From Streptomyces sp. NBC_01314 (lineage in GTDB: Bacteria > Actinomycetota > Actinomycetes > Streptomycetales > Streptomycetaceae): DNA of 64,000 nt. A model generated the notes under the pieces. The model saw nothing but the letters and a program-made list of their open reading frames with translations, searched no databases and was not told the DNA's origin. Of this stretch, positions 34,171 through 61,061 are shown one piece after another (position 1 is the first letter of the stretch; each line of letters starts with the position of its first letter). Location of the stretch: the NCBI RefSeq assembly GCF_041435215.1, contig NZ_CP108394.1, positions 1,116,001 to 1,180,000 of the forward strand, given 5' to 3'. The position numbers and the translations under genes are program-made.

Positions 34171-34233
34171 TTGACCGGACCCCCGACCTCTTGGACCATG
34201 TTGCGTATCGCTCGACAAGTTGCTCAATACGCA
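34171..34233 (+). promoter_or_regulatory. glyA promoter and IclR-type operator (site A)
   Basis: TTGACC (34171-34176), 17 bases, then GACCAT (34194-34199) is followed directly by TTGCGTATCGCTC. The inverted pair TGCGTAT (34202-34208) and ATACGCA (34227-34233) is separated by 18 bases. The same elements at the same distances occur before purU (site B), with an identical 17-base core GACCATGTTGCGTATCG. Confidence 0.75.
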
Positions 34234-34262
34234 CCGCCGGCTGAGATGACGAGGTCGTTCGC

Positions 34263-35528
34263 ATGTCGCTTCTGAACACGCCCCTGCACGAGCTGGACCC
34301 GGAGGTCGCCGCCGCCGTCGACGCCGAGCTGCACCGCCAGCAGTCCACCCTGGAAATGATCGCCTCGGAGAACTTCGCCCCCGTCGCCGTCATGGAGGCC
34401 CAGGGCACCGTCCTCACCAACAAGTACGCCGAGGGCTACCCCGGCCGCCGCTACTACGGCGGCTGCGAACACGTCGACGTCACCGAACAGATCGCCATCG
34501 ACCGCCTCAAGGACCTCTTCGGCGCCGAATACGCCAACGTCCAGCCCCACTCCGGCGCCTCCGCCAACCAGGCCGCCCTCTTCGCCCTCGCCCAGCCCGG
34601 CGACACCATCCTCGGCCTCGACCTCGCCCACGGCGGCCACCTCACCCACGGCATGCGCCTGAACTTCTCCGGCAAACAGTTCAACGTCGTCGCCTACCAC
34701 GTCGACACCACCACCGGCCTCGTCGACATGGCCGAACTGGAGCAGCTCGCCAAGGAACACCGCCCCAAGGTGATCATCGCCGGCTGGTCGGCCTACCCGC
34801 GCCAACTGGACTTCGCCGCCTTCCGCCGCATCGCCGACGAGGTCGGCGCGTACCTGTGGGTGGACATGGCACACTTCGCCGGCCTGGTCGCCGCCGGACT
34901 GCACCCCAACCCCGTCGAACACGCCGACGTGGTCACCTCCACCACCCACAAGACCCTCGGCGGCCCCCGCGGCGGCATCATCCTCGCCAAGCAGGCATTC
35001 GCCAAGAAGCTCAACTCCTCCGTCTTCCCCGGCTTCCAGGGCGGCCCCCTGGAACACGTGATCGCCGCCAAGGCCGTCTCCTTCAAGGTCGCGGCCTCGG
35101 AGGAGTTCAAGGAGCGCCAGCAGCGCACCATTGACGGCGCCCGCATTCTGGCCGAGCGGCTGACCGCCGCCGACGCCCGTGACGCCGGCGTCGACGTCCT
35201 GTCCGGCGGCACCGACGTCCACCTCATCCTGGTCGACCTGCGCGCCAGCGAACTCGACGGACAGCAGGCCGAGGACCGCCTCCACGAGGTCGGCATCACC
35301 GTCAACCGCAACGCCGTCCCCAACGACCCCCGCCCCCCGATGATCACCTCCGGCCTGCGCATCGGCACCCCCGCCCTCGCCACCCGCGGCTTCACCACCG
35401 AGGACTTCACCGAGGTCGCCGACGTCATCGCCGAAGCCCTCAAACCGTCCTACGACACCGAAGCCCTCAAAACCCGGGTCAAGGCACTGGCCGACAAGCA
35501 CCCGCTCTACCCCGGGTTGGCCAAGTAA
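34263..35528 (+). CDS. glyA: Serine hydroxymethyltransferase
   Basis: This 421-aa PLP enzyme converts glycine plus 5,10-methylene-THF to serine plus THF. Visible motifs are [17 protein letters not shown], the lysine loop [14 protein letters not shown] (Schiff-base lysine), and [13 protein letters not shown]. The length is normal. In this locus glycine and methylene-THF are both products of sarcosine oxidation, so GlyA joins them and SdaA, encoded next, turns serine into pyruvate. It is probably a catabolic paralogue of a housekeeping glyA. ATG at 34263. Promoter and operator site A lie 30-90 bp upstream. Confidence 0.95.
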
Positions 35529-35534
35529 GACCCC

Positions 35535-35564
35535 GGTGGGGCACCCGGACCCGTGTGCCCCACC
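35535..35564. terminator. Intercistronic hairpin between glyA and sdaA
   Basis: GGTGGGGCAC (35535-35544) and GTGCCCCACC (35555-35564) form a perfect 10-bp stem with a 10-nt loop, 6 bp after the glyA stop and 20 bp before the sdaA start. It may stop some transcripts and so lower sdaA relative to glyA, or stabilise the glyA message. Confidence 0.55.
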
Positions 35565-35584
35565 CCCCGTTCTGAGGAGTCACC

Positions 35585-36967: not shown

Positions 36968-37006
36968 GGGAGTGGGCCTTGACCTGCGTGTGCCCACGCC
37001 GTCGAG

Positions 37007-37615
37007 TCAGGCCACCCTGTATTCCGTCGCCGCGTCCAGCAGCCAGCCCATCAGGTACTCGGCGAAGGATGAGCGGACCAGTACCCAGAAGCCGGACCCG
37101 GGTTCGTCGCGGGCGATCAGGATGATCTGGGTGCGGCCGAGGGTGGTCTGGGCGCAGCGTCCGGCGCCGAAAGCGCGTGGGTGCAGGTCCAGGGCGCAGC
37201 CGTGGGACAGCAGGTCGCGGGCGCGGGGGCCTGCGACGAGGACGGTGGTGCGCTGGGCGGAGACGTCGGTGACGGAGATGGGCTCGTCCCCGGCGGCGGT
37301 GCGGATCCGGCTCTCCAGTTCCTGCGCGCCGCCGGGCGGGCCCACCAGCAGCCATTCGTCCGGACCCAGCCACAGCGCGGTCAACTGCCCGGCGCGTACG
37401 ACGGTGTTGGGTTCCAGGGGCAGTTGCAGGTCCAGGGCGAGGCCGATGGCGTCGGCCGCCGCTCCCTTGGCGTCGAGGCGGAGGTCGAGCTGGGTCAGGA
37501 AGGGGAGTTCGGCCAGCCGGACCGCGCCTCCGGAGGTGCGGGTGGCGGCGGCCAGACGGTCGGCGGCGTGGGACAGGGGGCTTCGGGGCGGGGCGGTGAG
37601 TGCGGTGTCAGCCAT
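37007..37615 (-). CDS. soxG: Sarcosine oxidase gamma subunit
   Basis: This 202-aa protein is the small gamma subunit of heterotetrameric sarcosine oxidase. It resembles a short aminomethyltransferase fold, with LWLGPDEWLLVGPPG and VTDVSAQRTTVLVAGPRARDLL typical of SoxG. ATG at 37615 overlaps the end of soxDA by 8 bp (ATGGCTGA). It is the last gene of the dmgO-folD-soxB-soxDA-soxG operon, and its stop faces the sdaA stop 40 bp away. Confidence 0.93.
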   Translation of the reverse strand: MADTALTAPPRSPLSHAADRLAAATRTSGGAVRLAELPFLTQLDLRLDAKGAAADAIGLALDLQLPLEPNTVVRAGQLTALWLGPDEWLLVGPPGGAQELESRIRTAAGDEPISVTDVSAQRTTVLVAGPRARDLLSHGCALDLHPRAFGAGRCAQTTLGRTQIILIARDEPGSGFWVLVRSSFAEYLMGWLLDAATEYRVA

Positions 37616-40600
37616 CGCGGCGGGCTCCCTCGGGGTCGTAGAGGACGGGGCTTGCGACGGTCACCGGGACCAGCCGGTCGCCGACGGGGGCGTACAGCCG
37701 CTCGCCGATGCGGTCCCGGCCGCCCTTGATCAGGGCGAGCGCGAAGGTCCGGCCGAGGGCGGCGCTGCGGTAGCTGGAGGTGACGTGGCCGAGCATCGGG
37801 ACGGGCGGGGCGGGCAGGACGCTGTCGGCGACCAGGTGGGTGCCCTCAGGGAGGAAGGTGCCGGGGTCCTCAGGGAGCAGGCCGACGAGGTGCTTGCGGT
37901 CGGCGCGGAGGGTGTCGGCGCGCGCGTAGGAACGCTTGCCGATGAAGTCGGGCTTCTTCTTCGAGACGACCCAGTTCATGCCGAGGTCCTGGGGGGTGAC
38001 GGTGCCGTCGGTGTCCTGGCCGATGATCGGGTAGCCCTTCTCGGCGCGCAGGACGTGCATGGTCTCGGTGCCGTACGGGGTGATGCCGTGCGGGGCTCCG
38101 GCCTCGTACAGCGCCTGCCAGAGGGTGAGGGCGTCCCACGGTGACACGTTGATCTCATAGGCGAGTTCGCCGGAGAAGCTGATCCGGCAGACCCGGGCCT
38201 CGATGCCGGCGACGGTCGTCTCGCGCCAGGCCATGAACGGGAAGTCGTCGTTGGACACGGCCAGTTGGGGTGCGAGTGTGCCGAGGACGTCGCGGGAGCG
38301 GGGGCCGACGAGGGCGACGGTGGCCCACTGTTCGGTCACGGACGTGCAGTGGACCTTCAGGTCGGGCCACTCGGTCTGCAGCCACTCCTCCATCCAGTCC
38401 AGCACGGCGGCCGCGTTGCCGGTCGTCGTGGTGACCAGGAAGCGGTCCTGGGCGAGGCGGATGACCGTGCCGTCGTCGAAGAGCATGCCGTCCAGGCGGC
38501 ACATGACGCCGTAGCGGATCATGCCGACCTTCAGGCTGCTCATCATGTTCGTGTAGAGCCGGTCGAGGAAGACGGCGGCGTCCGGGCCCTGGACGTCGAT
38601 CTTGCCGAGCGTGGAGGCGTCCATGAAGGCGACGCCGTCGCGGGCGGCGGCGCACTCGCGCAGCACGGCGGTCTCCATGGTCTCGCCGTCCTGCGGGTAG
38701 TACCAAGGGCGCTTCCACTGGCCGACGTTCTCGAACAGGGCGCCGTGTGCGACATGCCACTCGTGGATGGCGGTCGTGCGGACCGGGTCGCTCAGGGCGC
38801 CGCGGTCACGGCCCGCGAGCGCCGCGAAGGAGACCGGCGTGTACGGCGGCCGGAACGTGGTCGTGCCGAGCGCGGAGATGTCCACGCCGAGCAGTTCGGC
38901 CACCGCGCCGCTGGCCAGGACACCCGACGTCTTGCCCTGGTCGTTGGCCGTCCCGGCCGTGGTGTAGCGCTTGGTGTGCTCGACGGAGCGCATGCCGGCG
39001 CCGGTCGCGCGGGCCAGGTCGTCGACGGTGACGTCGCGTTGGAGGTCGACGAAGCGGGGGGCCCCGGAGGTGTCCGGGACGGTGTACACGTGCATGGGCG
39101 GCGTCGGCTGCGGCTGGGCGGCCACGTCCGGAAGGCGTGGGGAAACCGGGGTGTAGCCCTCGGCCTCGACCGCGCGCGCACCGGCGGCCGCGCCCTGCGC
39201 GAGGACCCCGGCGAGGTCGGACACGCCGCTCGCGCCGCCCGCCACCTCGACCGCCTGACGGCAGGTGTCGGGGACGAAGGAGCCCAGCGTCTCGTCGTGG
39301 CGCAGTCTGCCGCCCGCCTGGCTGAAGAGGTGCGCGACCGGGTTCCAGCCGCCGGACACCAGCAGGAGGTCGGCGGCGAACTGCCGCTGCCCCGCGGGCT
39401 CTCCGTACGGGCCGGCGGTCACGGCGGTGAGGCGCGGGGCGCCCTCCGTGCCGGTGACGGCGTACCCGGCCAGCACCTCGATGCCGGCCTCGCGGGCGCG
39501 GCTCGCCCACTGGCCCGGTTCGGGGCGGGTGTCGACGATCGCCGCGATGTGCACGCCCGCCGCGGCGAGGTCCAGGGCCGCCGCGTAGGCACTGTCGTTG
39601 GTGGTGAAGACGACCGCCCGGCGGCCCGGCAGGACGCCGTGCCGGTTGGCGTAGGCGCGGGCCGAGGCGGCCAGCATCACGCCGGGGCGGTCGTTGTCCG
39701 CGAAGGCGAGAGAGCGTTCGTGGGCGCCGGTGGCGAGGACGACGCGGCGGGCACGGATGCGCCAGACGCGTTCGCGGGAGACGTTCTCGGGAGCTTCGGC
39801 GCCGAGGTGGTTGGTGCGGCGTTCCACGGCGAGGAGGTGGTTGTCGTCGTAGTAGCCGAAGACGGTGGTGCGGCGCAGAACGCGGACCTCGGGGGCGGCG
39901 TCGAGTCGTGCGGCGGTCTCCTCGGACCAGTCGAGGTGCTCGCCGGTGCCCAGGAGGCTGCCGCCCAGGTGCGGTTGGTCGTCGGCGAGGATGACTCGGG
40001 CGCCGCTGTCCGCGGCCGCCGCGGCCGCCGCGAGGCCGGCCGGGCCCGCGCCGACGATCAGCAGATCGCAGTGGGCGTGTACGGCGTCGTAGCGGGCGGG
40101 GTCCGGTTCCGTGGCGAGGCGGCCCTGGCCGGGGAGGCTGCTCGCGACGAGGCCCTCGTACAGCTCGACGGTCGTCGCGGGGAGCATCGGCTCCGGGAAG
40201 GGGGCCTCGATCTGGATGACCGCGTTGGGTTCCTCGACGCCGGCCGAGAAGATGCCTCGGGGGCGGCCGAGTTTGATGCTGGTGCCGGTCTGGATGATGC
40301 CGTTGGCGAGGAGGGCGGAGGCGAGGGTGTCGCCCTGGTAGCCCTGGTATGCGGTTCCGTCGAACACGAACGTCAGGGGTTCGTTCCGGTCGACGTGGCC
40401 ACCGGTGGTCAGGCGGAAGGGCTGAGTTTCGCCCCCGCCGCCCCTACCCGTCCCATCCCTGGGGGCTGCGCCCCCAGACCCTCCTTCGGCCTGAACGGCC
40501 TCGTCCTCGAACGCAGGACGGGCTGATGGTGCCGGACCCGGCTCGGAAGCGGCCGGGCGATCCGGAGACGCCGGACGTGACTCAGAGGTCGCCGCATGGC

Positions 40601-40922
40601 CCGGAGATGCCGCGCGTGGCGCAGAGCTCGCCGCACGCCTCGGTTCCTCCGCGGCCGGGCGCGGCTCCCCGGCCCGGTACACCGCGAGGATCTCGTTCGT
40701 CGACGTGTCGCGTACCGCGTTGAACCACGTGCGGCAGCCCGCCGCGTGGCTCCAGCGTTCGGCGAACGGGCCCTTCGGGTTGTCGCGGAAGAAGAGGTAA
40801 CGGGCCCACTCCTCGTCGGTGAGGGCCGACGGTGTCTCGGGGTAGGGCACGTGTGCCTGGCCGCCGTAGTGGAACTCGGCCTCGTCGCGGGGCCCGCACC
40901 ACGGGCAGGTGATGAGCAGCAT
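37608..40922 (-). CDS. soxDA: Fused sarcosine oxidase delta-alpha subunit (SoxD-SoxA)
   Basis: One uninterrupted frame of 1104 residues joins SoxD and SoxA, normally two genes. Residues 1-89 are SoxD with its zinc ligands Cys6, Cys9, His59 and Cys63 (CPWC; SHAAGC). A low-complexity Ala/Pro/Ser linker (about 90-131) follows, then about 34 residues encoded by an interspersed repeat (R2). SoxA follows from about 166 (RLTTGGHVDRNEPLTFVFDG) with the FAD motif LLIVGAGPAGLAAA, a second nucleotide-binding site and a C-terminal THF-binding GcvT-like region. No ATG, GTG or TTG in frame lies between the two parts, so SoxA cannot easily start alone. The enzyme oxidises sarcosine to glycine, with methylene-THF or formaldehyde and H2O2. 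Confidence 0.9.
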   Translation of the reverse strand: MLLITCPWCGPRDEAEFHYGGQAHVPYPETPSALTDEEWARYLFFRDNPKGPFAERWSHAAGCRTWFNAVRDTSTNEILAVYRAGEPRPAAEEPRRAASSAPRAASPGHAATSESRPASPDRPAASEPGPAPSARPAFEDEAVQAEGGSGGAAPRDGTGRGGGGETQPFRLTTGGHVDRNEPLTFVFDGTAYQGYQGDTLASALLANGIIQTGTSIKLGRPRGIFSAGVEEPNAVIQIEAPFPEPMLPATTVELYEGLVASSLPGQGRLATEPDPARYDAVHAHCDLLIVGAGPAGLAAAAAAADSGARVILADDQPHLGGSLLGTGEHLDWSEETAARLDAAPEVRVLRRTTVFGYYDDNHLLAVERRTNHLGAEAPENVSRERVWRIRARRVVLATGAHERSLAFADNDRPGVMLAASARAYANRHGVLPGRRAVVFTTNDSAYAAALDLAAAGVHIAAIVDTRPEPGQWASRAREAGIEVLAGYAVTGTEGAPRLTAVTAGPYGEPAGQRQFAADLLLVSGGWNPVAHLFSQAGGRLRHDETLGSFVPDTCRQAVEVAGGASGVSDLAGVLAQGAAAGARAVEAEGYTPVSPRLPDVAAQPQPTPPMHVYTVPDTSGAPRFVDLQRDVTVDDLARATGAGMRSVEHTKRYTTAGTANDQGKTSGVLASGAVAELLGVDISALGTTTFRPPYTPVSFAALAGRDRGALSDPVRTTAIHEWHVAHGALFENVGQWKRPWYYPQDGETMETAVLRECAAARDGVAFMDASTLGKIDVQGPDAAVFLDRLYTNMMSSLKVGMIRYGVMCRLDGMLFDDGTVIRLAQDRFLVTTTTGNAAAVLDWMEEWLQTEWPDLKVHCTSVTEQWATVALVGPRSRDVLGTLAPQLAVSNDDFPFMAWRETTVAGIEARVCRISFSGELAYEINVSPWDALTLWQALYEAGAPHGITPYGTETMHVLRAEKGYPIIGQDTDGTVTPQDLGMNWVVSKKKPDFIGKRSYARADTLRADRKHLVGLLPEDPGTFLPEGTHLVADSVLPAPPVPMLGHVTSSYRSAALGRTFALALIKGGRDRIGERLYAPVGDRLVPVTVASPVLYDPEGARRDG
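40428..40527. repeat. Interspersed GC-rich repeat, copy R2 (translated within soxDA)
   Basis: The first ~55 bp match R1 (6300 onward). The centre is a hairpin CTGGGGGC / GCCCCCAG with a 3-nt loop (40460-40478). It ends GGACGGGCTGA, the familiar tail of this Streptomyces repeat. Its length of about 100 bp leaves the soxDA frame open and it is read as a Gly/Ala/Arg-rich peptide (residues about 132-165). Confidence 0.8.
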
Positions 40923-40933
40923 GGTTGGGCTCC

Positions 40934-42166
40934 CTAGTGGGCCACCGCGGCCGCGCCGTGCTCGTCGACGAGCGCGCCGGTGGTGAAACGGTCGAGCGAG
41001 AAGGGGGCGTTGAGGGGGTGGGGGGTGTCGTGGGCGATGGTGTGGGCGTAGACCCAGCCGACGCCCGGGGTGGCCTTGAAGCCGCCCGTTCCCCAACCGC
41101 AGTTCAAGTACAGGTTGTCGACCGGGGACAGGCCGACGATGGGTGACGCGTCCGGGCTCACGTCGACGATTCCTCCCCACGTACGCAGCACATGGGCCCG
41201 CGCGAAGACCGGGAAGAGTTCCAGGGCCGCCGACATCTGTTCCTCGATGATGTGGAACGCGCCACGCTGCGTGTACGAGTTGTACGAGTCGATGCCCGCA
41301 CCCATCACCAGCTCGCCCTTGTGCGCCTGGCTGACGTACACGTGGACCGCGTTGGACATCACCACCGTCGGGTGCACGGGTTCGAGGAGTTCGGAGACCA
41401 ACGCCTGCAACGGGTGGCTCTGGAGCGGGAGTTCGATGCCCGCCATCGCCGCCAGCACCGAGGTGTGGCCCGCTGAACACAGCGCCACCTTGCCCGCCGC
41501 TATCGGGCCCAGGGTCGTCTGTACTCCGACCACCCTGCCGCCGACCACGTCCAGGCCGGTGACCTCGCAGTTCTGGATGATGTCGATGCCGGCCGCGTCC
41601 GCCGAACGGGCCAGGCCCCATGCCACGTGGTCGTGCTTCGCGATGCCGGCGCGCGGCTGGTAGGTACCGCCCATCACCGGATAGCGCACGTCCGGCGAGA
41701 TGTTGACGATCGGGCAGACCTCTTTGACCTGGTCCGCGTCGAGCCACTCCGCGTCCACGCCGTTGAGGCGGTTGGCCTCCACCCGCCGCACGCTGTCGCG
41801 TACGTCCTGCAGGCTGTGGGCGAGGTTCAGCACCCCACGCTGGGAGAAGAGGATCGGGTAGTCGAGCTCCTCGGCCATGCCCTCCCACAGCTTGAGCGCG
41901 TGCTCGTAGATGCCGGCGCTCTCGTCCCACAGGTAGTTGGAGCGGATGATGGTGGTGTTGCGGGCCATGTTGCCGCCCGCCAGCCAGCCCTTCTCCAGCA
42001 CGGCCACGTTGGTGATGCCGTGGTTCTTGGCGAGGTAGTGGGCGGTGGCGAGGCCGTGTCCGCCGCCGCCGACGACGATCACGTCGTACGAGCGCTTCGG
42101 CTCCGGCGTGCGCCACAGCCAGTCGGGGTGTTCGGGCAGCTCGGCGCCGGGGGTACGGGGGCTCAT
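40934..42166 (-). CDS. soxB: Sarcosine oxidase beta subunit
   Basis: This 410-aa flavoprotein subunit carries the sarcosine-oxidising site. It has the FAD motif [18 protein letters not shown] and the AKHDHVAWG segment (His178), which matches the region where FMN is covalently bound in characterised heterotetrameric enzymes. It also has the C-terminal [18 protein letters not shown] at 42166. It lies 94 bp after folD and 11 bp before soxDA, whose ribosome site GGGAG overlaps the soxB stop. Confidence 0.95.
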
Positions 42167-42260
42167 CGGACGTCTCCGTCGTGTGAGGGGTGCGGGCGGA
42201 GCGGACGGCCGGGGGCCGACGCGTTCATGCGGGCGTTCGCAGCCGTGCGGGCGTTCGGTT

Positions 42261-43121
42261 TCATACGGGATTCGCGTTCCTCTCGGCGGCCTCGACGACG
42301 TTGGCGAGGAGCATCGCCCGCGTCATCGGTCCCACGCCGCCGGGCATCGGCGCGAGCCATCCGGCGACCTGGGCGGCGTCCGGGTGCACATCGCCGGCCA
42401 GCCCGTCTTCGGTGCGGGTGATACCGACGTCCAGGACGGCCGCGCCGGGGCGCAGCATCTCCTTGGTGATCAGTCCGGGTGAGCCGGCCGCCGCGACGAC
42501 GATGTCCGCCTCGCGTACATGCCGGGCCAGGCCCTGGGTTCCGGTGTGGCAGAGGGTGACGGTGGCGTTCTCGGACCTGCGGGTGAGGAGCAGGCCGAGG
42601 GGCCGTCCCACGGTGATGCCACGTCCGATCACACAGACCCGCGCTCCGGCGAGCGGCACCTCGTACCGGCGCAGCAGCTCGACGATGCCGCGCGGGGTGC
42701 AGGGCAACGGGGCCTCGACACCGAGGGTGAGCCGCCCGAGGCTGACCGGGTGCAGGCCGTCGGCGTCCTTCGCCGGGTCCATGCGCTCCAGTACGGCGTT
42801 GGCGTCCAGGTGGCGCGGGAGCGGCAGCTGCACGATGTAGCCGGTGCAGGCCGGATCGGCGTTCAGCTCGTCGATGACAACCTCGACCTGCCGCTGACTC
42901 GCGTCGGCGGGCAGCTCGCGCCGGATCGAGGCGATCCCCACCTGAGCACAGTCCCGATGCTTGCCTCCGACGTAGGCACGGCTACCGGGATCGTCCCCGA
43001 CGAGTACCGTCCCGAGCCCGGGCGGTGGCCCACCCGCAGCGGTCAACTTGGCTACGCGTTCGGCAAGTTCACGACGAATGGCGGCAGCCGTCGCCTTCCC
43101 GTCCAGCACCTGTGCGCTCAC
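42261..43121 (-). CDS. folD: Methylenetetrahydrofolate dehydrogenase / methenyl-THF cyclohydrolase
   Basis: This 286-aa bifunctional enzyme oxidises 5,10-methylene-THF to 10-formyl-THF. Visible motifs are the catalytic [15 protein letters not shown] (Tyr/Lys), [13 protein letters not shown], and the dinucleotide site [16 protein letters not shown] followed by PGGVGPMT. I chose GTG at 43121, with AAGGAG 8 nt upstream, over GTG 43130, where the site would abut the codon. It clears the one-carbon units released by DmgO and sarcosine oxidase; PurU then frees THF. Confidence 0.95.
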
Positions 43122-43153
43122 CGACGGCACTCCTTCCAAGAACCCGAGCCACA

Positions 43154-43252
43154 GCGCCCCTCCAGGGGCGCGGGGCTGTGTCGATCTGCGGCTCCGCCGC
43201 GGGGCGCGACCAGCCACGACGAACCCGCGGCCGCCCGACAACCCGTCCCGGC
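43154..43252. repeat. Interspersed GC-rich repeat, copy R3
   Basis: This segment lies between dmgO and folD, beginning GCGCCCCTCCAGGGGCGCGGGG and running through CGGCTCCGCCGCGGGGCGCG to the CCGCCCGACAACCC tail (each quoted only in part). It shares its opening hairpin with the second half of R1. Located between co-transcribed genes, the hairpin (GCGCCCCT/AGGGGCGC) may attenuate or stabilise the message. Confidence 0.65.
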
Positions 43253-43268
43253 ACCGTCTTCGGACAAC

Positions 43269-45813
<2,545 letters not shown>

Positions 45814-46962: not shown

Positions 46963-46974
46963 GGTCGGTGCTCC

Positions 46975-50093: not shown

Positions 50094-50113
50094 GATCGGC
50101 CTCTTCTCGGCAT

Positions 50114-51583
50114 TCAGCCGCGGAACCAGTGTTGCGGCCGGGGTTGGATGTTCTGCCAGATGTGTTTGGGCTCTCGGTACTCGTTCAGACCGGTCGGTCC
50201 CAGCTCCCGGCCCACGCCCGAATGCCCGAAGCCACCCCATTCCGCCTGCGGCACATAGGGGTGGTAGTCGTTGATCCACACCGTTCCGTGGCGCAGCCTC
50301 CGGGCGACCCGCTGGGCCTTGCCCGCGTCCTGCGTCCAGACGGCTCCGGCGAGTCCGTACTCGGTGTCGTTGGCGATGCGTACGGCGTCGTCCTCGTCGG
50401 TGAAGCGCTCCACGGTGAGCACCGGCCCGAAGGACTCCTCGTGCACCACCCGCATGTCCTGCCGGCATTCGTCGAGGACGGTCGGCGGGTAGTAGTAGCC
50501 GTCCGCGAGGGCCGGGTCGTCGGGCCGTGCGCCGCCGCAGCGCAGTACGGCGCCCTCGGCGAGGCCCGCCGCGACGTACGCCTCGACCTTCTCCCGGTGC
50601 TGGGCGGAGATCAGCGCCCCGGTCTCGGCCTCGGGGTCGAAGGGGCCGCCGAGCCGGATCTGCCGGGCCCGGCGGACGACCTCGTCGACGAGGGCGTCGT
50701 GGATCGAGTCCTCGACGATCAGGCGGGCGCCGGCCGAGCAGACCTGGCCCGAGTGCAGGAACACGGCTGTGAGGGCGAAGTCCACGGCCGTCTCGAAGTC
50801 GGCGTCGGCGAAGATCACGTTGGGGTTCTTGCCGCCGAGTTCCAGCGCCACCTTCTTCACGGTCGCCGCGGCGGTGGCCATGATCCGTTTGCCGGTCTCC
50901 AGTCCCCCGGTGAAGGAGACCATGTCGACGCGCGGGTCCTCGGAGAGGGCGGCGCCGACCTCGGGTCCGGTGCCCAGGACGAGGTTGGCGGCGCCGGCCG
51001 GGAGTCCGGCCTCCTCCAATGCCCGCATGAGCAGGATCGAGGTGGAGGGGGTGAGTTCGCTGGGTTTGAGGATGATCGTGTTGCCGGCGAGGAGGGCCGG
51101 GGCGACCTTCCAACTGGCCTGCAGCAGCGGGTAGTTCCAGGGAGTGATGAGCCCGCAGACACCGATGGGCTCGTAGATCACCCGGCTGACGGCGTCGTCG
51201 CGTCCGGTGTCGATGACCCGGCCGGCGTCGGTGCCGCCGAGGCCGCCGTAGTACCGGAAGCAGGAGACGACATCGGCGATGTCGTACTCGCTCTCCACGA
51301 ACCGCTTGCCGCTGTCCAGGGATTCGGCGCGGGCGAACTCCTTGGTGTCGCGCTCGATGAGGTCGGCGGTGCGCAGCAGCAACGCTCCGCGCTCCCGCTC
51401 GGGGGTGTTCGGCCAGGGTCCCTCGTCGAAGGCGCCGCGGGCCGCGGCGATCGCCGCCTCGGTGTCGGGACGTGTCCCTTCCGAAACGGTCGCGGTGAGC
51501 GTGCCATCAGCGGGACAGCGGATCTCCCGGCGCCCTCCGGCCACCGGATCCCGCCATTCCCCAGCCACATACAGTTCTGCCAC
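50114..51583 (-). CDS. betB: Betaine aldehyde dehydrogenase
   Basis: This 489-aa NAD(P)-dependent aldehyde dehydrogenase oxidises betaine aldehyde to glycine betaine. The catalytic glutamate is in [11 protein letters not shown], the cysteine in [11 protein letters not shown], and [12 protein letters not shown] and the C-terminal [12 protein letters not shown] are in place. The GTG start at 51583 gives [10 protein letters not shown]. First gene of the betB-opuA operon and divergent from purU. Assignment as BetB rests on the family pattern plus betA, the betaine importer and gbcA in the same locus. Confidence 0.93.
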
Positions 51584-51604: not shown

Positions 51605-51617
51605 ATGCGTTGCGCAT
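51605..51617. promoter_or_regulatory. Degenerate IclR-type site near betB (site G)
   Basis: ATGCG-TTG-CGCAT is an inverted repeat 22 bp before betB, containing GTTGCGCATCG, which matches site A and B half-sites (GTTGCGTATCG) at all but one position. The N18-spaced partner is not evident. A TTGACG -35 lies on the minus strand near 51690, with a poor -10. Confidence 0.45.
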
Positions 51618-51723
51618 CGTGCATTCAATTGCTTGTGGTGGAACACCTTTGCGAATGCCATAGAGGTACGTCAAGGGGTTGACTGATGACGATTTCACCA
51701 TGAGAGCACTTCCCCGGCCGCTC

Positions 51724-51786
51724 TTGACCGCGAGCGGCGTCGAGCCGACCATGTTGCGTATCGCTCACCATGTTGTGCAATACGCA
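51724..51786 (+). promoter_or_regulatory. purU promoter and IclR-type operator (site B)
   Basis: TTGACC (51724-51729), 17 bases, GACCAT (51747-51752), then TTGCGTATCGCTC. TGCGTAT (51755-51761) and ATACGCA (51780-51786) are perfectly inverted around 18 bases. Arrangement and sequence are nearly identical to site A upstream of glyA. It lies in the divergent betB/purU region and may also affect betB. Confidence 0.78.
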
Positions 51787-51801
51787 CCGACGGAGGCCGT
51801 C

Positions 51802-52674
51802 ATGTCCCCTCGACCGCAACCTGGCCGTGAGTTCGTCCTCACCCTCTCCTGTCCTGACAGCGCCGGACTGGTCCACGCGGTGAGCGGCTTCCTGGTCAGG
51901 AACTCGGGCAACATCCTGGAGAGCCAGCAGTTCGACAACCGTCTCCAGGGCCGTTTCTTCATGAGGGTCCACTTCGACATCTCCGACCCGGACGCGAACC
52001 TGAAAACTCTGCGTTACCGGTTCGGTCCCGTGGCCGAGGCGTACGGCATCACCTGGGTCCTGAGCGAGGCGTCGACCCCGACCCGGACACTCATCATGGT
52101 GTCCAGGTTCGGCCACTGCCTGAACGACCTGCTGTTCCGCTCGCGCACCGGCTCCCTCAACATCGAGATCCCCGCGATCGTCTCCAACCACCGGGACTTC
52201 GAGGGGCTGGCGGACACCTACGGCATCCCCTTCCACCACATCCCGGTCACCAGGGACACCAAGGCCGAGGGCGAGGCGCGCCTGCTGGAGCTGGTCGGCG
52301 AACTGGACATCGACCTGGTGGTGCTGGCCCGCTACATGCAGATCCTCTCCGACGACCTGTGCAAGCAGTTCGAGGGCCGGGCCATCAACATCCACCACTC
52401 GTTCCTCCCCAGCTTCAAGGGCGCGAAGCCGTACGACCAGGCCTACGACCGCGGGGTGAAGCTCGTCGGCGCCACCGCACACTATGTGACCTCGGACCTG
52501 GACGAGGGGCAGATCATCGAGCAGGACGTGGTCAGGGTGGATCACTCGCTCGACCCCGCGGACCTGGTCACCGTCGGCCGGGACGTCGAGGCACAGGTCC
52601 TCGCCCACGCGGTGAAATGGCACAGCGAGAGCCGCGTCATGGTGGACGGCAACCGCACGGTGGTCTTCCGCTGA
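51802..52674 (+). CDS. purU: Formyltetrahydrofolate deformylase
   Basis: This 290-aa enzyme hydrolyses 10-formyl-THF to THF and formate. The N-terminal ACT domain (FVLTLSCPDSAGLVHAVSGF) is followed by the formyltransferase-like domain with INIHHSFLPSFKGAKPY and GATAHYVTSDLDEGQIIEQD. I chose ATG at 51802, with CGGAGG upstream, because the longer frame to 51679 runs through the promoter. In this locus it regenerates THF for DmgO and sarcosine oxidase when methyl flux is high. Confidence 0.95.
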   Translation: MSPRPQPGREFVLTLSCPDSAGLVHAVSGFLVRNSGNILESQQFDNRLQGRFFMRVHFDISDPDANLKTLRYRFGPVAEAYGITWVLSEASTPTRTLIMVSRFGHCLNDLLFRSRTGSLNIEIPAIVSNHRDFEGLADTYGIPFHHIPVTRDTKAEGEARLLELVGELDIDLVVLARYMQILSDDLCKQFEGRAINIHHSFLPSFKGAKPYDQAYDRGVKLVGATAHYVTSDLDEGQIIEQDVVRVDHSLDPADLVTVGRDVEAQVLAHAVKWHSESRVMVDGNRTVVFR

Positions 52675-52678
52675 GCGA

Positions 52679-52736
52679 CAGGACAGGACAGTGGGGCGGA
52701 GCCGGCCTTCCAGCTCCGCCCCACTGCCCTGTCCTG
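52679..52736. terminator. Bidirectional terminator, 24-bp arms
   Basis: Positions 52679-52702 and 52713-52736 are complementary over 24 bp with one mismatch and a 10-nt loop, between the convergent purU and metF-like genes. It is among the longest stems in the window. Confidence 0.88.
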
Positions 52737-52780
52737 CCGCTCCGGACCGGTCCGTCTTCGTATACGGCCGTGGGGCGCCC

Positions 52781-53617: not shown

Positions 53618-53620
53618 GGT

Positions 53621-55300: not shown

Positions 55301-55355
55301 GGTGCCTCGTCTCGCTCGCGCCGTAGATACGCGAGCATGCTAGTCGAGTAGCGCT

Positions 55356-55384
55356 ATACGCACCAGGTTGCGAACAACGCAACC
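55356..55384. promoter_or_regulatory. IclR-type operators between betA and iclR (site D)
   Basis: ATACGCACC (55356-55364) reproduces the right half-site of sites A and B. It is followed by a perfect inverted repeat GGTTGCG-N5-CGCAACC (55366-55384). A minus-strand promoter for betA can be drawn as TTGCGT, 18 bases, TATAGC, overlapping both elements. Autoregulation of iclR and control of betA-metF are likely. Confidence 0.6.
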
Positions 55385-55412
55385 TGCAAGGCCATTATTT
55401 CGTTGCCGTTGC

Positions 55413-55450
55413 TTGCGATGGCGTTGTTTACTACGCGTATAGTTTCACTG
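55413..55450 (+). promoter_or_regulatory. iclR promoter, probably leaderless
   Basis: TATAGT (55438-55443) is a near-consensus -10, with TTGCGA (55413-55418) 19 bases upstream. The GTG start codon is at 55450, exactly where transcription should begin. No Shine-Dalgarno sequence lies in between. The palindrome TACGCGTA (55432-55439) overlaps the -10. Confidence 0.65.
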
Positions 55451-56247
55451 TGAGCAACTACAGCAACGACACGGAAACCTCGAACTCGCAGGCCGGCGGA
55501 GTGCAGTCCGTGGACCGCGCCATCAGCGTTATGGAGATCCTGGCCCACCGGGGCGAGGCGGGCGTCAGCGAAGTAGCCGCAGAAATCGACGTACACAAGT
55601 CCACCGCCTTCCGCCTTCTCGGCGCCCTGGAGGCGCGCGGCCTGGTGGAGCAGGCGGGCGAGCGAGGCAAGTACCGCCTCGGCTTCGGCATCGTACGCCT
55701 GGCCGGTGCGGTGACCGGACGCATCGACATCACCCAGCAGGGCCGGCCGGTCTGCGAGACCCTGGCCGAGGAGATCGGCGAGACCGTCAACATCGCGGTG
55801 CTGCAGGAGCACTACGCGGTCAACCTCTACCAGGTGCGCGGCCCCGGAGCGGTCACCGCGCACAACTGGGTCGGCCAGCTCACGCCGCTGCACGCGACGT
55901 CGAGCGGAAAGGTCCTGCTGGCCTACCTGCCCGCCAAGCAGCGTGCCGCGCTGCTTGCCGACTCCGGCCTCAAGAAGGTCACACCGCACACCATCACCTC
56001 GAAGACGAAGCTCGAGAAGCATCTCGTCGAGGTACGGGAGGCCGGTTACGCCTGGACCCAGGAGGAGCTGGAGATCGGTCTGCACGCCATGGCCGCGCCG
56101 GTGCTCGACCGGGAGGGCGACGTCATCGCGGCCCTCACCGCCTCCGGACCCTCGTACCGGTTCACCGAGGAGCGGATGCGCGAGCTGGCCCCGGTGCTGG
56201 TCAAGGGCGCCGAGGAGATCAGCCACCGCATGGGTTACCTGGGCTGA
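55450..56247 (+). CDS. IclR-family transcriptional regulator of choline/betaine catabolism
   Basis: This 265-aa regulator has an N-terminal winged helix (SVDRAISVMEILAHRGEAGV, then SEVAAEIDVHKSTAFRLLGALE) and a C-terminal IclR effector domain (LHATSSGKVLLAYLP, GYAWTQEELEIGLHAMAAPV). GTG at 55450. It is the only regulator in the 34-61 kb catabolic block, is divergent from betA and convergent with gbcA (9 bp apart). It is the best candidate to bind TGCGTAT-N18-ATACGCA sites in front of the catabolic operons. The inducer, probably a choline-derived amine, is inferred only. Confidence 0.93.
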   Translation: MSNYSNDTETSNSQAGGVQSVDRAISVMEILAHRGEAGVSEVAAEIDVHKSTAFRLLGALEARGLVEQAGERGKYRLGFGIVRLAGAVTGRIDITQQGRPVCETLAEEIGETVNIAVLQEHYAVNLYQVRGPGAVTAHNWVGQLTPLHATSSGKVLLAYLPAKQRAALLADSGLKKVTPHTITSKTKLEKHLVEVREAGYAWTQEELEIGLHAMAAPVLDREGDVIAALTASGPSYRFTEERMRELAPVLVKGAEEISHRMGYLG

Positions 56248-56256
56248 CCTTCCCGG

Positions 56257-57387
56257 CTACTGCGAGCCGCCGCCCAGGCGCTCGGTCACCCAGTCGTGGA
56301 AGGCGCCGATGTGGTGCTCGCTGGGCACCAGTACCCCGCCCTTGGCATACAGCCGTGAGTGCATTCCGGGCTGGGTGCGCTCGCACGCCTCGAAGTCCTG
56401 CCGGTTGACCCGGTCGAAGAGTTCCACGGACCGGCTGACGTCCTTGCCGCTCTCGACGACGTGCGGGAGGTAGAGCCAGTCGCACTCGACGATCGTGCGG
56501 TCCACTGCCACCGGGTACATCCGGTGGAAGATCACGTGGTCGGGGACGAGGTTGATGAAGACCTGCGGCTTGACGGTGATCGCGTAGTAGCGGCGGTCCT
56601 GGTCCTCGGCGACGCCGGGAATGCGGTCCAGTCCCTCGGAGCCGTCCACCGTGAAGCCCTGCACCTCCTCACCGAATTCGGCGCCGTGCCCGACGTAGTA
56701 CTGGGCCGCGTAGCCGTCGGCGAACTCGGGCAGCACCTCGGTGAGTTCGGGGTGGATCGTGGCGCAGTGGTAGCACTCCATGAAGTTCTCGATGATGAGC
56801 TTCCAGTTGGCCTTGACGTCGTAGACGATCCGCTTGCCCACGGAGAGGTTGTCGATGTCGTAGCGCTCGATCGCCTCGACGTCGCCGAGCCTCTCGACGA
56901 TCGCGCCCAGTATGTCCTCCTCGAAGGAGGGCGGGTTCTCGGCGAGACAGACCCAGACGTAACCGAGCCATTCACGGACGGCCACGCTCACCAGGCCGTA
57001 CTCGGTGCGGCCGACGTCGGGCATCTTGGTGAGGTTGGGCGCCGCGACGAGCTTGCCGTCCAGGCCGTAGGTCCAGGCGTGGTACGGGCATTGGAAGGCC
57101 CGCTTGACCTCGCCGCTCTCCTCCGTGCAGAGCTTGGCCCCACGGTGCCGGCAGACATTGAAGTGGGCGCGGATGGAGTTGTCCCGGGCTCGGGTGATCA
57201 GGATGCTCTCGCGGCCCACGTCGACGGTACGGAAGGCGCCGGGCTTCCCCAGGTCCGAGGAGCGCGCGACACAGAACCACATCGTCTCGAAGACGCGTTC
57301 CTGTTCCAGGGCGAAGATCGCGGGATCGGTGTAGGAGGAGCCGGGGAGGGTGGCGATCAGGCTGTCCGGCAGGCTGGTCGAGGTCAC
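56257..57387 (-). CDS. gbcA: Glycine betaine demethylase, Rieske oxygenase component
   Basis: This 376-aa oxygenase removes one methyl of glycine betaine as formaldehyde, giving dimethylglycine. The Rieske ligands are CRHRGAKL and CPYHAW, with mononuclear iron in NFMECYHCATIHPEL. Length and pattern fit the GbcA/choline-monooxygenase-like group. The GTG start at 57387 is preceded by GAGGAG. It follows the ferredoxin and reductase genes on the same strand (130-bp gap), giving a three-component system. Specificity for glycine betaine comes from context: betB upstream in the pathway and dmgO downstream. A related N-methyl substrate such as stachydrine cannot be excluded. Confidence 0.88.
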   Translation of the reverse strand: MTSTSLPDSLIATLPGSSYTDPAIFALEQERVFETMWFCVARSSDLGKPGAFRTVDVGRESILITRARDNSIRAHFNVCRHRGAKLCTEESGEVKRAFQCPYHAWTYGLDGKLVAAPNLTKMPDVGRTEYGLVSVAVREWLGYVWVCLAENPPSFEEDILGAIVERLGDVEAIERYDIDNLSVGKRIVYDVKANWKLIIENFMECYHCATIHPELTEVLPEFADGYAAQYYVGHGAEFGEEVQGFTVDGSEGLDRIPGVAEDQDRRYYAITVKPQVFINLVPDHVIFHRMYPVAVDRTIVECDWLYLPHVVESGKDVSRSVELFDRVNRQDFEACERTQPGMHSRLYAKGGVLVPSEHHIGAFHDWVTERLGGGSQ

Positions 57388-57517
57388 AGGGCACTCCTCG
57401 GAGGAACGTCGTGGATCGGGCGGTCACGCGCCGGGAAGAGCGACTCCGGACGGTGTCGGGGGTAAAGCGACGCCGCGTGCCATGAAGGCCGCAGCGTGGG
57501 ATGGAACGCGTGCCGGG

Positions 57518-58678
57518 TCAGGAGGCCGCGGCGAGCTGCTTGCGCCAACGGGTGAACAGCCGGGGCTGGTTCATCCCGAGCACGGCGACCGGGTGGCCGG
57601 CGCGCCGGTAGACCGCCAGGACGTTGCGGTCGTCGGGTGCGCCTTCCTCCACCGTCACGCTGTCGGCGCCGGCCGCGTGACCGGCGAACTGGATCTTGAC
57701 GCCGTACTGGTCCGACCAGAAGTACGGCGGCCGGGGCACACCCGGTTCCACCGCTCCCCCGGCCAGCAGGGTGGCGACGGCCGCCGCCGGGCGTTCCTGT
57801 GCGCCGGTCCAGTGTTCGACGCGGCGATGGTGGCCCGCGCGGGGGTCGTACCAGGAGGCGCAGTCACCGACCGCGACCACGCCGGCCAGGCTGGTGCGGC
57901 CGTCCGCGCCGCACTTCACGCCGTTGTCGAGCGTGACGCCGGATCCTTCCAGCCAGTCGACGCACGGGGACGCGCCCACCCCCACGACGACGATGTCGGC
58001 GGGGATGCTGCGGCCGTCCTCCAGCAGGACGGCCTCGACCTTGCGCTCCCCGCTCAGGCCCTTGACGCCGACGCCGCACAACAGCCGTACGCCGTGGTCC
58101 AGATGGAGGGCGGAGACGATGCTGCCCATGGCCTGGCCGAGCGGGGCGGCGAGTGGCGTGGGTGCCGCTTCGACGACCGTCGCCTCCAGCCCGAGCGCGT
58201 GGGCGGTGGAAGCGACCTCGGCGCCGACGAATCCGCCGCCGATCACGACCAGCCGTCCGCCCCGGGCCAGTTCGTCCCGCAGGGCGCGGGCGTCGTCCAG
58301 GGTGCGCAGGACGTGGACTCCGGCCAGGCCCTCGGAGCCGGGCAGCCGGCGGGCGGCCGCGCCGGTCGCGATGACGAGGCCGTCGGCCTGGATCTCCCTG
58401 CCGTCGGCGAGCCGGACCGCACGCCGGGTACGGTCCAGGCCGGTGGCGCGGACTCCGAGCAGCCACTCCGCCCGCAGGTCCTCGCCGTCCGTCTCCAGGG
58501 CGAGGTCGGACTCGCCGAGGTCGCCGGCCAGGAACTCCTTGGACAGCGGGGGCCTGTCGTACGGACGGTGGGCCTCGTCGCCGATGACGACCAGCCGTCC
58601 GTCGTAGCCCTGTTTCCGCAACGAGCGCGCCGCCGACAGACCGGCCAGCGAGGCGCCCACGACGGCGACGGTCCTCAC
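57518..58678 (-). CDS. FAD-dependent ferredoxin reductase (BphA4-like)
   Basis: This 386-aa reductase has two dinucleotide folds, TVAVVGASLAGLSAARSL for FAD and RLVVIGGGFVGAEVASTA for NAD(P)H. It also has RPPLSKEFLAG and GVVAVGDCASWYDP, typical of oxygenase-coupled ferredoxin reductases. It contains no iron-sulfur cluster and so needs the separate ferredoxin. GTG at 58678 overlaps the ferredoxin stop by 4 bp (GTGA), indicating coupled translation. It should feed electrons to GbcA. Confidence 0.9.
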   Translation of the reverse strand: MRTVAVVGASLAGLSAARSLRKQGYDGRLVVIGDEAHRPYDRPPLSKEFLAGDLGESDLALETDGEDLRAEWLLGVRATGLDRTRRAVRLADGREIQADGLVIATGAAARRLPGSEGLAGVHVLRTLDDARALRDELARGGRLVVIGGGFVGAEVASTAHALGLEATVVEAAPTPLAAPLGQAMGSIVSALHLDHGVRLLCGVGVKGLSGERKVEAVLLEDGRSIPADIVVVGVGASPCVDWLEGSGVTLDNGVKCGADGRTSLAGVVAVGDCASWYDPRAGHHRRVEHWTGAQERPAAAVATLLAGGAVEPGVPRPPYFWSDQYGVKIQFAGHAAGADSVTVEEGAPDDRNVLAVYRRAGHPVAVLGMNQPRLFTRWRKQLAAAS

Positions 58679-59037
58679 GCGGGACCTCCGGCGAGCCGGG
58701 CCGCGACGCAGGGCGGCAGGTTGGGGGCGTCCGTGGACACCCGGACGTGGATCATGCCGTCCTCGATGACGACCTCGTGGGTCCGGACCGGAAGCTTGGC
58801 CGGCGGGGAGTCGACGGCGCCCGTCCTCAGGTCGAACTTCGAAGCATGCAGCGGGCATTCCACCTCGCAGCCCTCCAGCCAGCCGTCGGCGAGCGAGGCG
58901 TCCTGGTGGGTGCAGGTGTCGTCGATGGCGAACACCTCGCCGTCGTCGGTGTGGAACACCGAGACCGGCGGGTCGATGTCGAGCCGGAGGGCCTCGCCTC
59001 GCGGGAGATCTGCGAGACGGCACGCGGGAATCATCAT
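58675..59037 (-). CDS. Rieske-type [2Fe-2S] ferredoxin
   Basis: This 120-aa electron carrier has Rieske ligands in CTHQDASL and CPLHASKF with the usual 16-17 residue spacing and a GAVDSPPAKLPV end. It resembles the ferredoxin components of class IIB/III dioxygenases. Two adjacent ATGs (59037, 59034) follow GAGGTGTC. It heads the ferredoxin-reductase-gbcA unit, under promoter and operator site E. Confidence 0.93.
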   Translation of the reverse strand: MMIPACRLADLPRGEALRLDIDPPVSVFHTDDGEVFAIDDTCTHQDASLADGWLEGCEVECPLHASKFDLRTGAVDSPPAKLPVRTHEVVIEDGMIHVRVSTDAPNLPPCVAARLAGGPA

Positions 59038-59048
59038 GACACCTCGGG

Positions 59049-59114
59049 TGCGTATAGCGAAACGGATTGCGGTAAGCGCAACAACAGTTTGAGGTCGCCC
59101 AGAATCCTTGTCAA
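59049..59114 (-). promoter_or_regulatory. Ferredoxin-reductase-gbcA promoter and IclR-type operator (site E)
   Basis: On the minus strand TTGACA (59114-59109), 17 bases, CAAACT (59091-59086), then GTTGTTGCGCTT. On the plus strand TGCGTAT (59049-59055) and AAGCGCA (59074-59080) are spaced by 18 bases, matching the A/B operator at 12 of 14 positions. Confidence 0.7.
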
Positions 59115-59243
59115 GGCGTCGAAGGGCCCGCTTCGGACGGGTGCGACGGCCGTCGTCAGGGCAGCCCAAACGCCCGTACCACCTGCGGGAACAGGCGGTA
59201 CGGGCGCCGTGCGTGGGTCGTGCGTGGGTCGTCGCGTGGGCGG

Positions 59244-59873
59244 TCAGAAGCCGCGGTCGATCCACTCCTGGAGCTGCGGGGCCTCCGCGCCGACGGTGGT
59301 CGTGTCACCGTGTCCGGTGTGGACGACGGTGTCGCCGGGCAGCGTCAGCAGCCGGTCGCGGATCGAGTCGACGATGGTCGGGAAGTCGCTGTACGACCGT
59401 CCCGTCGCCCCCGGACCGCCCGCGAACAGGGTGTCGCCGCTGAAGAGCGCCGTCAGGCCCGGCGCGTACAGACAGACCGCTCCGGGAGCGTGGCCGGGCG
59501 TGTGCAGCACGGTCAGGTCGACGCCCGCCACGGTGAGGACCTGACCGTCGGCGAGTTCGCCGTCGGGTGTCCGGTCGGGGTGGGTCTGCTTCCACAGCGG
59601 CAGGTCGTCGGAGTGGAGCAGGATCGGGGCGCCGGTGCGCGCCGCGAGTTCGGGCGCCGCGTCGATGTGGTCGTTGTGGGCGTGGGTGCACACGATGGCC
59701 CGCAGGGTGCGCCCGCCGAGCGCTTCGGCGATCGCTCCGGCGTCGTGCGCGGCGTCGATGACGACGGCCTCGGTGTCGTCGCCGACGATCCACACGTTGT
59801 TGTCGACGTCCCAGGTGCCGCCGTCCAGCGAGAACGTCCCCGAGGTGACGAGATGTTCGATGCGGGCGGCCAT
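59244..59873 (-). CDS. MBL-fold metallohydrolase (glyoxalase II-like)
   Basis: This 209-aa zinc hydrolase has the motif THAHNDHID (HxHxDH), HTPGHAPGAV and FSGDTLFAGG, and a C-terminal HTGHGD. Its start overlaps the stop of mscR by one base (TGATG). This pairing is common for mycothiol-dependent formaldehyde oxidation. The hydrolase may split the S-formyl-mycothiol produced by MscR, although that role is inferred from neighbourhood. Confidence 0.9.
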   Translation of the reverse strand: MAARIEHLVTSGTFSLDGGTWDVDNNVWIVGDDTEAVVIDAAHDAGAIAEALGGRTLRAIVCTHAHNDHIDAAPELAARTGAPILLHSDDLPLWKQTHPDRTPDGELADGQVLTVAGVDLTVLHTPGHAPGAVCLYAPGLTALFSGDTLFAGGPGATGRSYSDFPTIVDSIRDRLLTLPGDTVVHTGHGDTTTVGAEAPQLQEWIDRGF

Positions 59874-60958
59874 CAGAGGACCACTACCGAGCGCAGGACG
59901 TCGCCGCCGTGCATCCGCTCGAAGGCCTTCTCCACGTCGTCCAGCGCGATGGTCTCCGTGACGAAGGCGTCCAGGTCCAGGCGGCCCTGGAGGTACAGGT
60001 CGATGAGCATCGGGAAGTCACGGGAGGGTAGGCAGTCGCCGTACCAGGAGGACTTCAGCGTGCCACCGCGGCCGAAGACGTCCAGCAGCGGCAGCTCCAG
60101 CTTCATCTCCGGGGTCGGCACACCGACGAGGACGACCGTGCCGGCCAGGTCGCGGGCGTAGAAGGCCTGCTTGTACGTCTCCGGGCGGCCCACCGCCTCG
60201 ATGACGACGTCGGCCCCGAAGCCGCCGGTCAGCTCACGGATCGCCTCGACCGGGTCGGTGTTCTTCGAGTTGACCGCGTGGGTCGCGCCCAGCTTCCTGG
60301 CGGTGTCCAGCTTGGCGTCGTCGATGTCCACCGCGATGATCTTCGCCGCGCCCGCCAGGTTCGATCCGACGACCGCGGCCGCCCCGACGCCACCACAGCC
60401 GATGACGGCCACGCTGTCACCGCGCCCGACGTTGCCGGTGTTGATGGCCGCGCCGATGCCGGCCATCACCCCGCACCCCAGCAGGCCGGCGGCGGCCGCG
60501 GAGGCGGCCCGGTCGACCTTCGTGCACTGCCCCGCCGCCACCAGCGTCTTCTCCGCGAAGGCGCCGATGCCCAGCGCCGGCGACAGCTCGGTGCCGTCGA
60601 GCAGCGTCATCTTCTGCTTCGCGTTGTGGGTGCTGAAGCAGTACCACGGGCGTCCGCGCAGACAGGCCCGGCACTGCCCGCAGACCGCACGCCAGTTGAG
60701 GATGACGAAGTCACCGGGGGCCACATCGGTGACACCTTCCCCCACCGACTCCACGACGCCCGCCGCCTCATGGCCCAGCAGGAAGGGGAACTCGTCGTTG
60801 ATGCCGCCCTCCCGATAGTGCAGATCGGTGTGGCAGACCCCGCAGGCCTCGACCTTCACCAGCGCCTCCCCCGGGCCGGGGTCGGGCACGATGATCGTTT
60901 CCAGGCTGACGGGGGCGCCCTTGCCCCGCGCGACGACAGCACGGACCTGGTGAGCCAT
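59873..60958 (-). CDS. mscR: S-(hydroxymethyl)mycothiol dehydrogenase
   Basis: This 361-aa zinc alcohol dehydrogenase oxidises the mycothiol adduct of formaldehyde. Catalytic zinc is in [10 protein letters not shown] and LGHEAAG, structural zinc in [15 protein letters not shown], and NAD binding in [14 protein letters not shown]. The pattern is that of the mycothiol-dependent FrmA/MscR group. ATG at 60958; upstream in-frame codons lack a ribosome site. GbcA releases formaldehyde with each turnover and sarcosine oxidation can do so, so co-regulation through site F makes sense. Confidence 0.92.
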
Positions 60959-60996
60959 GGCCACTCCTCGGCAGTAACGAGACCTGAGTCTGCGGT

Positions 60997-61061
60997 TGCT
61001 TATTACGGTACGCATCGCGCCTACCGCAACACAGCATCGTGGAGCGCCGACCAGGGGTCAA
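60997..61061 (-). promoter_or_regulatory. mscR promoter and IclR-type operator (site F)
   Basis: On the minus strand TTGACC (61061-61056), 17 bases, GATGCT (61038-61033), then GTGTTGCGGTA. On the plus strand TGCTTAT (60997-61003) and TACCGCA (61022-61028) are spaced 18 bases, matching the A/B operator at 10 of 14 positions. Confidence 0.62.

Follow-up and report, generated by a model that had tools for sequence, protein, structure and literature searches.

A choline and betaine gene block with one IclR protein

We analysed 64,000 nucleotides (nt) of Streptomyces sp. NBC_01314 (contig NZ_CP108394.1; hereafter the window), drawn from a genome of 11.35 Mb labelled G000. The window carries a block of genes, running from glyA to mscR, that we assign to choline and betaine breakdown, and within it a gene for an IclR-family protein that probably controls the whole block through a 36-base-pair (bp) operator repeated at its promoters.

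The genes glyA (34263-35528) and sdaA (35585-36967) lie on the + strand and are followed on the − strand by soxG, soxD/A, soxB, folD and dmgO (37007..45764), a unit that would be co-transcribed from the dmgO promoter. Also on the − strand are genes for a substrate-binding protein, an ABC permease, an ABC ATPase and a betB-like aldehyde dehydrogenase (45982..51583). Beyond them lie purU (51799..52674, +; start codon approximate), a weak methylenetetrahydrofolate reductase-like protein (52781-53617, −), betA (53621-55300, −), the 265-amino-acid regulator, here called iclR (55450..56247, +), a gbcA-like oxygenase (56257-57387, −), a ferredoxin reductase (from 57518, within 56257..59037, −), the Rieske ferredoxin fdx (58675-59037, −), a metallo-β-lactamase-fold protein (59244-59873, −) and mscR, whose longest open reading frame spans 59873-61015 (−). 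As an operator copy at 60995 overlaps the start of that frame, the real mscR start probably lies further in. NCBIfam cut-offs are passed by glyA, sdaA, soxB, the choline ABC permease, purU, betA and mscR; Pfam assigns fdx and the metallo-β-lactamase-fold protein, DAO and GCV_T domains in dmgO, and also the other sox subunits and folD. The betB product scores 588.9 bits against an NCBIfam equivalog cut-off of 668.6, and the gbcA-like oxygenase falls far under its own (225.4 versus 670 bits), so the pathway name is partly inferred, from the gene set taken together.

The first-pass annotation of this DNA had named the protein at 55450 as the one linked regulator of the block, and profile scores bear this out: HTH_IclR and IclR_C reach 55.8 and 147.5 bits against Pfam cut-offs of 22 and 24, and the genes scanned from glyA to mscR yielded no second recognisable regulator. 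A PAS/GAF/SpoIIE phosphatase with a kinase-like ATPase domain (61106-63544) flanks the block on the mscR side.

A tandem operator at the block promoters

The operator consists of two tandem 17-bp palindromes, GTTGCG-N5-CGCAAC, placed 2 bp apart, and we scored it by matches at the 24 defined positions of this tandem. A shared operator had been proposed before as a single long inverted repeat, TGCGTAT-N18-ATACGCA. That sequence is exact at 34202-34233 (glyA) and 51755-51786 (purU) and recurs with the same spacing and 2 mismatches at 59049-59080 (fdx); the sharing stands, and the long repeat gives way to a pair of palindromes of which it forms part. Six copies score 19-22/24: glyA (34200..34235, +, 20/24), dmgO (45746..45781, −, 20/24), purU (51753..51788, +, 20/24), the betA/iclR intergenic region (55348..55383, assigned to no strand, 22/24), fdx-gbcA (59047..59082, −, 21/24) and mscR (60995..61030, −, 19/24). 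The dmgO site, earlier described as more degenerate, thus equals those of glyA and purU. The supposed half-sites at betB and between betA and iclR are real sites but complete operators, the latter the best in the window and the former (51609..51644, −, 17/24) with the same promoter layout as the other copies. A tentative copy lies over the iclR start codon (55423..55458, +, 16/24). The remaining readings in the window are 51734 at 17/24, a shifted reading of 51753, and 3765 at 16/24.

Copies of this quality are rare in shuffled sequence. Markov models of order 1 (40 replicates) and order 3 (200 replicates) predict 0.05 and 0.01 sites per 64 kb at 19/24 or better, with none at 20 in the latter. 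The signal also depends on the gap: the window holds six sites of at least 18/24 with a gap of 2 bp and between 0 and 2 for each other gap from 0 to 14. On its own the short TGCGTAT-N18-ATACGCA pattern is modest evidence and only moderately improbable (3 copies at up to 3 mismatches versus 0.52 expected; 2 of 100 shuffles gave as many). The copies at glyA and purU are perhaps not independent, as their promoters are 87% identical over 47 bp.

Promoter hexamers, read by eye, place the operator at the predicted transcription start. Identical TTGACC-N17-GACCAT promoters precede glyA (34171..34199, +) and purU (−35 at 51724-51729, +), each with the operator immediately after. On the − strand, dmgO has TTGACA-N17-GCACAT (−35 at 45808-45813) and fdx TTGACA-N17-CAAACT (59109-59114), both 3 bp from the operator, mscR has TTGACC-N17-GATGCT (61056-61061; 2 bp) and betB TTGACG-N17-CAAAGG (51669-51674; 1 bp). 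The −10 hexamers of these promoters are poor. The earlier description, TTGAC[A/C]-N17-hexamer with TTGCG beginning 30-33 bases from the first base of the −35, fits glyA, purU, dmgO, fdx and mscR, and its placement of the operator at the expected start holds in all six promoters, where the site lies directly or at most 3 bp past the −10.

The betA and iclR promoters are built otherwise than these six. A TATAGT stands six bases ahead of the iclR GTG start (55430-55452), a position that suggests a leaderless iclR transcript with its −10 within the tentative operator.

The operator is largely confined to the block

We scanned the genome with a sequence-only site model (R2) that contained no window sites; its 112 rows were 56 relatives' sites in both orientations, drawn from 69 chosen relatives' sites, and scoring covered 150 of 2731 first-look candidates. 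Among these, at least 10 distinct genome places matched at E ≤ 10, seven of them in the block. Ranks 1-5 fell at 51753, 34200, 59048, 55348 and 45746, all in the block, with 60995 ranking 7th and 51609 9th; the iclR start site at 55423 was not among the scored matches at E ≤ 10. A scan of this kind had been put forward as a check of the regulon, and it finds the motif largely confined to the block. Two other patterns were set aside. Model R1, made from sites at iclR promoters alone, proved too narrow, giving E values in the window of 2.8e-8 for 55348 and 0.03-0.05 for 51753 and 59050, with the others mixed with noise; the outer half-sites alone gave 3387 genome matches at up to 2 mismatches and were useless as a pattern.

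Conservation in related streptomycetes

We then compared 80 relatives' loci (79/80 titled Streptomyces; 1.51 Mb). As these were chosen around iclR, gene enrichment alone is no test, and spacing and position count instead. Tandem sites of at least 19/24 number 255 at a gap of 2 and 1-14 at each other gap from 0 to 11. In L010-L118, 328 of 378 readings at 18/24 or better lie between −30 and 450 bp ahead of a gene recognised as part of the pathway. Fifty do not: 38 of them, judged by sequence, are the dmgO operator close to the end of a locus, which leaves 12. In this comparison, which the first-pass annotation had proposed, the sites are conserved at the same promoters, among them those of dmgO and purU as well as betB (17-19/24 in relatives). 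The −35 is kept too: TTGAC stands 28-33 bp ahead of the operator at 75/92 fdx, 26/29 mscR, 14/16 gbcA and 43/44 dmgO sites, and, in the intergenic region common to purU and betB, where each site was counted for both genes, at 55/93 in the purU direction and 38/95 in the betB direction. Among 28-40 kb stretches from relatives, one genome has purU located elsewhere with its operator (G007), and second gbcA/fdx sets carry operators of their own. In three relatives, tandem-like sites (18/24) lie about 7 kb downstream of iclR (L062 17490, L063 17700, L089 16071) and match no gene assignment made in the window.

Upstream of iclR, the site follows the divergence of the regulator. Where iclR is 80-89% identical, a tandem of 19-22/24 lies 83-93 bp ahead of the iclR match in 10/10 relatives; at 55-60% identity (L020-L033) the best upstream score is 17-20 in 13/14; and at 50% or less an upstream site at 17/24 occurs in 0/5 (best scores 12-15). 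The DNA-reading helix is HKSTAFRLL in relatives at 80-89% and nearly unchanged at 55-60% (HKSTAFRIL in L022 and L025, HRSTAFRLL in L032). It becomes HKSSVFRLL at 48-50% and differs strongly at 36-37%, so that its change runs in step with motif loss.

The site at 55348 goes with betA. This gene lies divergently upstream of iclR in 61/80 loci, all 61 of which carry a site of at least 19/24, compared with 3/19 of the loci without a recognised betA beside iclR. Since the site tracks betA, autoregulation through 55348 was dropped and moved to 55423. There the position of a weaker site (15-18/24) at the iclR start codon is kept in 80/80 loci, which tentatively suggests that iclR has an operator of its own; the site stays tentative because the loci are orthologous, partly coding and not independent.

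Motif and regulator also occur together across genomes. Scoring the regulator as present at E ≤ 1e-80 and the motif at an R2 match of E ≤ 0.05 in 61 genomes, we found the motif in 23/25 genomes with the regulator and 0/36 without it (Fisher p 8e-15), or 13/15 versus 0/36 when the ten genomes known to supply model rows are excluded. Both this co-occurrence and the type of the motif, which matches published IclR operators, favour the proposed regulon. Regulator-less genomes that keep the pathway were set aside as a control, as they offered one dmgO, one partial betA-like protein at 64% and five at 42-46% (6/36 have a betA-like protein at E ≤ 1e-100); the operator was not found ahead of the lone dmgO (62%).

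Relatives of the regulator itself also stand near such sites. In six relatives' loci a further IclR paralogue, 66-78% identical, lies within the cluster or next to a second gbcA, again with operators close by (L158 6304-7098, L161 8286-9080, L163 14348-15142, L164 4387-5175, L166 4850-5620 and L175 4213-5004). In the genome analysed here, the regulator's second-best match is 48% identical. An IclR relative at 48% (G000:C1:807203-807946) sits beside a betB-like gene (38%), and a tandem site of at least 17/24 is absent from the 8 kb fetched around it.

A probable repressor acting at the predicted transcription start

Computation thus yields an operator, shows where it is placed, and finds it nearly confined to the block, conserved in relatives and co-occurring with the regulator, and we put at about 0.82 the probability that the IclR protein is a local, pathway-specific repressor acting on the choline/betaine block through this operator. 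In the proposed mechanism the IclR protein (55450-56247) would bind the 36-bp operator as a tetramer of two dimers, cover the predicted transcription start at glyA, purU, betB, dmgO, fdx-gbcA and mscR, and block RNA polymerase. A pathway compound binding the C-terminal domain, our guess at the effector, would release the protein, turning on the breakdown of choline to glycine and, with it, one-carbon disposal (purU, folD, glyA and mscR). Repression by polymerase block seems the likeliest mode because six promoters carry the operator just past the −10, at the expected start. The regulon proposed by the first-pass annotation is supported in this form.

Several observations pull the other way. 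The TTGAC found 28-33 bp ahead of the operator elsewhere is absent at betA (0/73) and iclR (0/91), and the iclR start site at 55423 is weak (16/24; E 0.75) and lies among noise in the window. Among the 55-60% relatives, L032 has a best upstream score of 13 and no site at 17/24, and two genomes (G017 and G027) carry the regulator with no motif match at E ≤ 0.05. Regulator and pathway are inherited together: dmgO is found in 1/36 regulator-less genomes (E ≤ 1e-100), so the co-occurrence test hardly separates one from the other. Among the candidates scored with R2, three places outside the block ranked 6th (4671849; 14.9 bits), 8th (10891687) and 10th (584290). Judged by reading, the first lies inside a frame whose listed translation is menaquinone-type, the second where a GntR-type-like gene begins and the third in a continuous coding-like stretch; from this sequence context we took all three as chance rather than regulon sites.

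Could the same protein bind these sites yet mainly activate, or act both ways, as argued for BhcR? Activation would suit the poor −10 hexamers and the different layout of betA and iclR, and expression of the BhcR target cluster requires BhcR (PMC11323563). We nevertheless think it unlikely, as the operator lies downstream of the −10 in six promoters, where activators rarely act, whereas the proposed BhcR palindrome sits upstream of the bhcA −35. A different regulator encoded elsewhere, with the IclR protein merely adjoining, would be compatible with a co-occurrence confounded with pathway presence. Less probable still in our estimate, it would have to account for a motif of IclR type with IclR tandem spacing that lies upstream of iclR at 80-89% identity and mostly at 55-60% and is gone where the reading helix changes, in a block where the scan from glyA to mscR recognised no further regulator. 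Chance similarity, or a feature of promoters in GC-rich DNA, draws what force it has from the moderate improbability of the short pattern first noticed and from the abundance of outer half-sites in the genome. The full tandem is far above shuffles and depends on its 2-bp gap, and the sites are concentrated in the block and conserved at the same promoters in relatives, results that already contradict this explanation and make it highly improbable.

A second glyA behind its own operator

The block's glyA is a near-copy of a core gene. Window positions 34232-35528 are 99.6% identical over 1297 bp to G000:C1:3677201-3678497, where the core glyA at G000:C1:3677232 is preceded by a frame that, judged by reading, is gcvH. 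The matching stretch starts at 34232, inside the last four bases of the operator; the adjoining sdaA is 87% identical, as against 99.6% for glyA. A match over the cluster glyA promoter and gene start occurs in 5/18 near relatives, and the three of these inspected (G088, G089 and G090) carry the operator at 19-20/24, although G088 keeps just 47 recognisable glyA bases and the contig of G090 ends early. In some relatives cluster glyA copies without the operator sit inside other units. We placed 17 glyA copies from 10 genomes in a tree. In 5/7 genomes (G000, G007, G013, G049 and G089; not G024 or G040) the cluster copy is paired there with that genome's own core copy, a pattern that suggests gene conversion or repeated re-capture.

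A broader picture follows, to which we give somewhat less than an even chance: a single IclR repressor may govern the whole route together with formaldehyde and formyl-folate disposal, with a second glyA placed under the regulon's own operator and kept core-like by conversion or re-capture. If true, one glyA enzyme is kept under two switches, its coding sequence core-like and its operator different, in most of the genomes examined. The analysis puts forward a regulon for choline/betaine breakdown in Streptomyces, a route for which the literature searched showed no described regulator. The regulon can be tested directly through its precisely defined operator of 36 bp. The analysis also ties one-carbon disposal to the same proposed switch, and gives the promoter layout base by base, with a duplicated core gene behind the regulon's own operator.

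Comparison with known regulators

In proteobacteria, choline and betaine genes are regulated by BetI (TetR family) and GbdR (AraC family), whose protein families are unrelated to IclR. Streptomyces has an IclR-family regulator of allantoin, AllR. NdgR shares both family and genus with the regulator described here, its published descriptions, in part, linking it instead to leucine biosynthesis and thiol stress. Among the matches listed in openly licensed full-text literature (titles and starts of abstracts, supplements not covered), the regulon is not described, and neither IclR with choline, betaine and Streptomyces nor GTTGCG with IclR gave a match in such full text. The words betaine, choline and sarcosine are absent from the main text of Suvorova and Gelfand 2021 (PMC8222616), the supplementary regulog tables lying outside that check.

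The best NCBIfam match of the regulator is BhcR of Paracoccus denitrificans, at 197.1 bits against an equivalog cut-off of 350 (NF045644). Passages of PMC11323563 describe BhcR as an IclR-family regulator of a glycine-related C2 pathway encoded beside its targets, as is the case here, and report it as an activator, needed for expression of its target cluster. The glyoxylate pocket differs. Ligand residues for glyoxylate and pyruvate in E. coli numbering are Gly160, Ala161, Asp212, Ser239 and Ser241 (PMC11323563 Table 1); in place of these IclR/AllR-type sensor residues the regulator has Ser151, Ser152, Thr203, Thr230 and Ser232, as read from a HMMER alignment to 2o99 and from the relatives' alignment. 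As the E. coli pocket residues are not kept, glyoxylate is improbable as effector. An aromatic cage for trimethylammonium (Trp140 and Trp202) was also considered and is not claimed, with Trp140 kept even in relatives at 50% or less and Trp202 not conserved.

At the level of DNA, the regulator differs from SsgR, a Streptomyces IclR-family protein of sporulation with the motif TGAAAACTCACTCCT (PMC8222616 Table 1). The layout of the operator is an already known IclR tandem type, and it is the choline/betaine regulon that is absent from the literature searched. Passages of PMC8222616 report tandem palindromes 18-22 nt apart for 94 IclR orthologous groups and explain the spacing by tetramers whose dimers occupy the same face of the DNA; the centres of the block operator lie 19 nt apart. 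A symmetrised matrix of the 69 relatives' sites reads GTTGCG[C/T]AT..CGCAAC, in which the inner positions alone are free of selection because the sites were picked by their GTTGCG/CGCAAC score. The operator has the same 17-bp GTT..AAC tandem palindromes as the IclR group 1 subgroup GTT-11-AAC and fits its published consensus GTTYCRYW3RYGRAAC except at half-site position 4, which is G here and Y there (PMC8222616).

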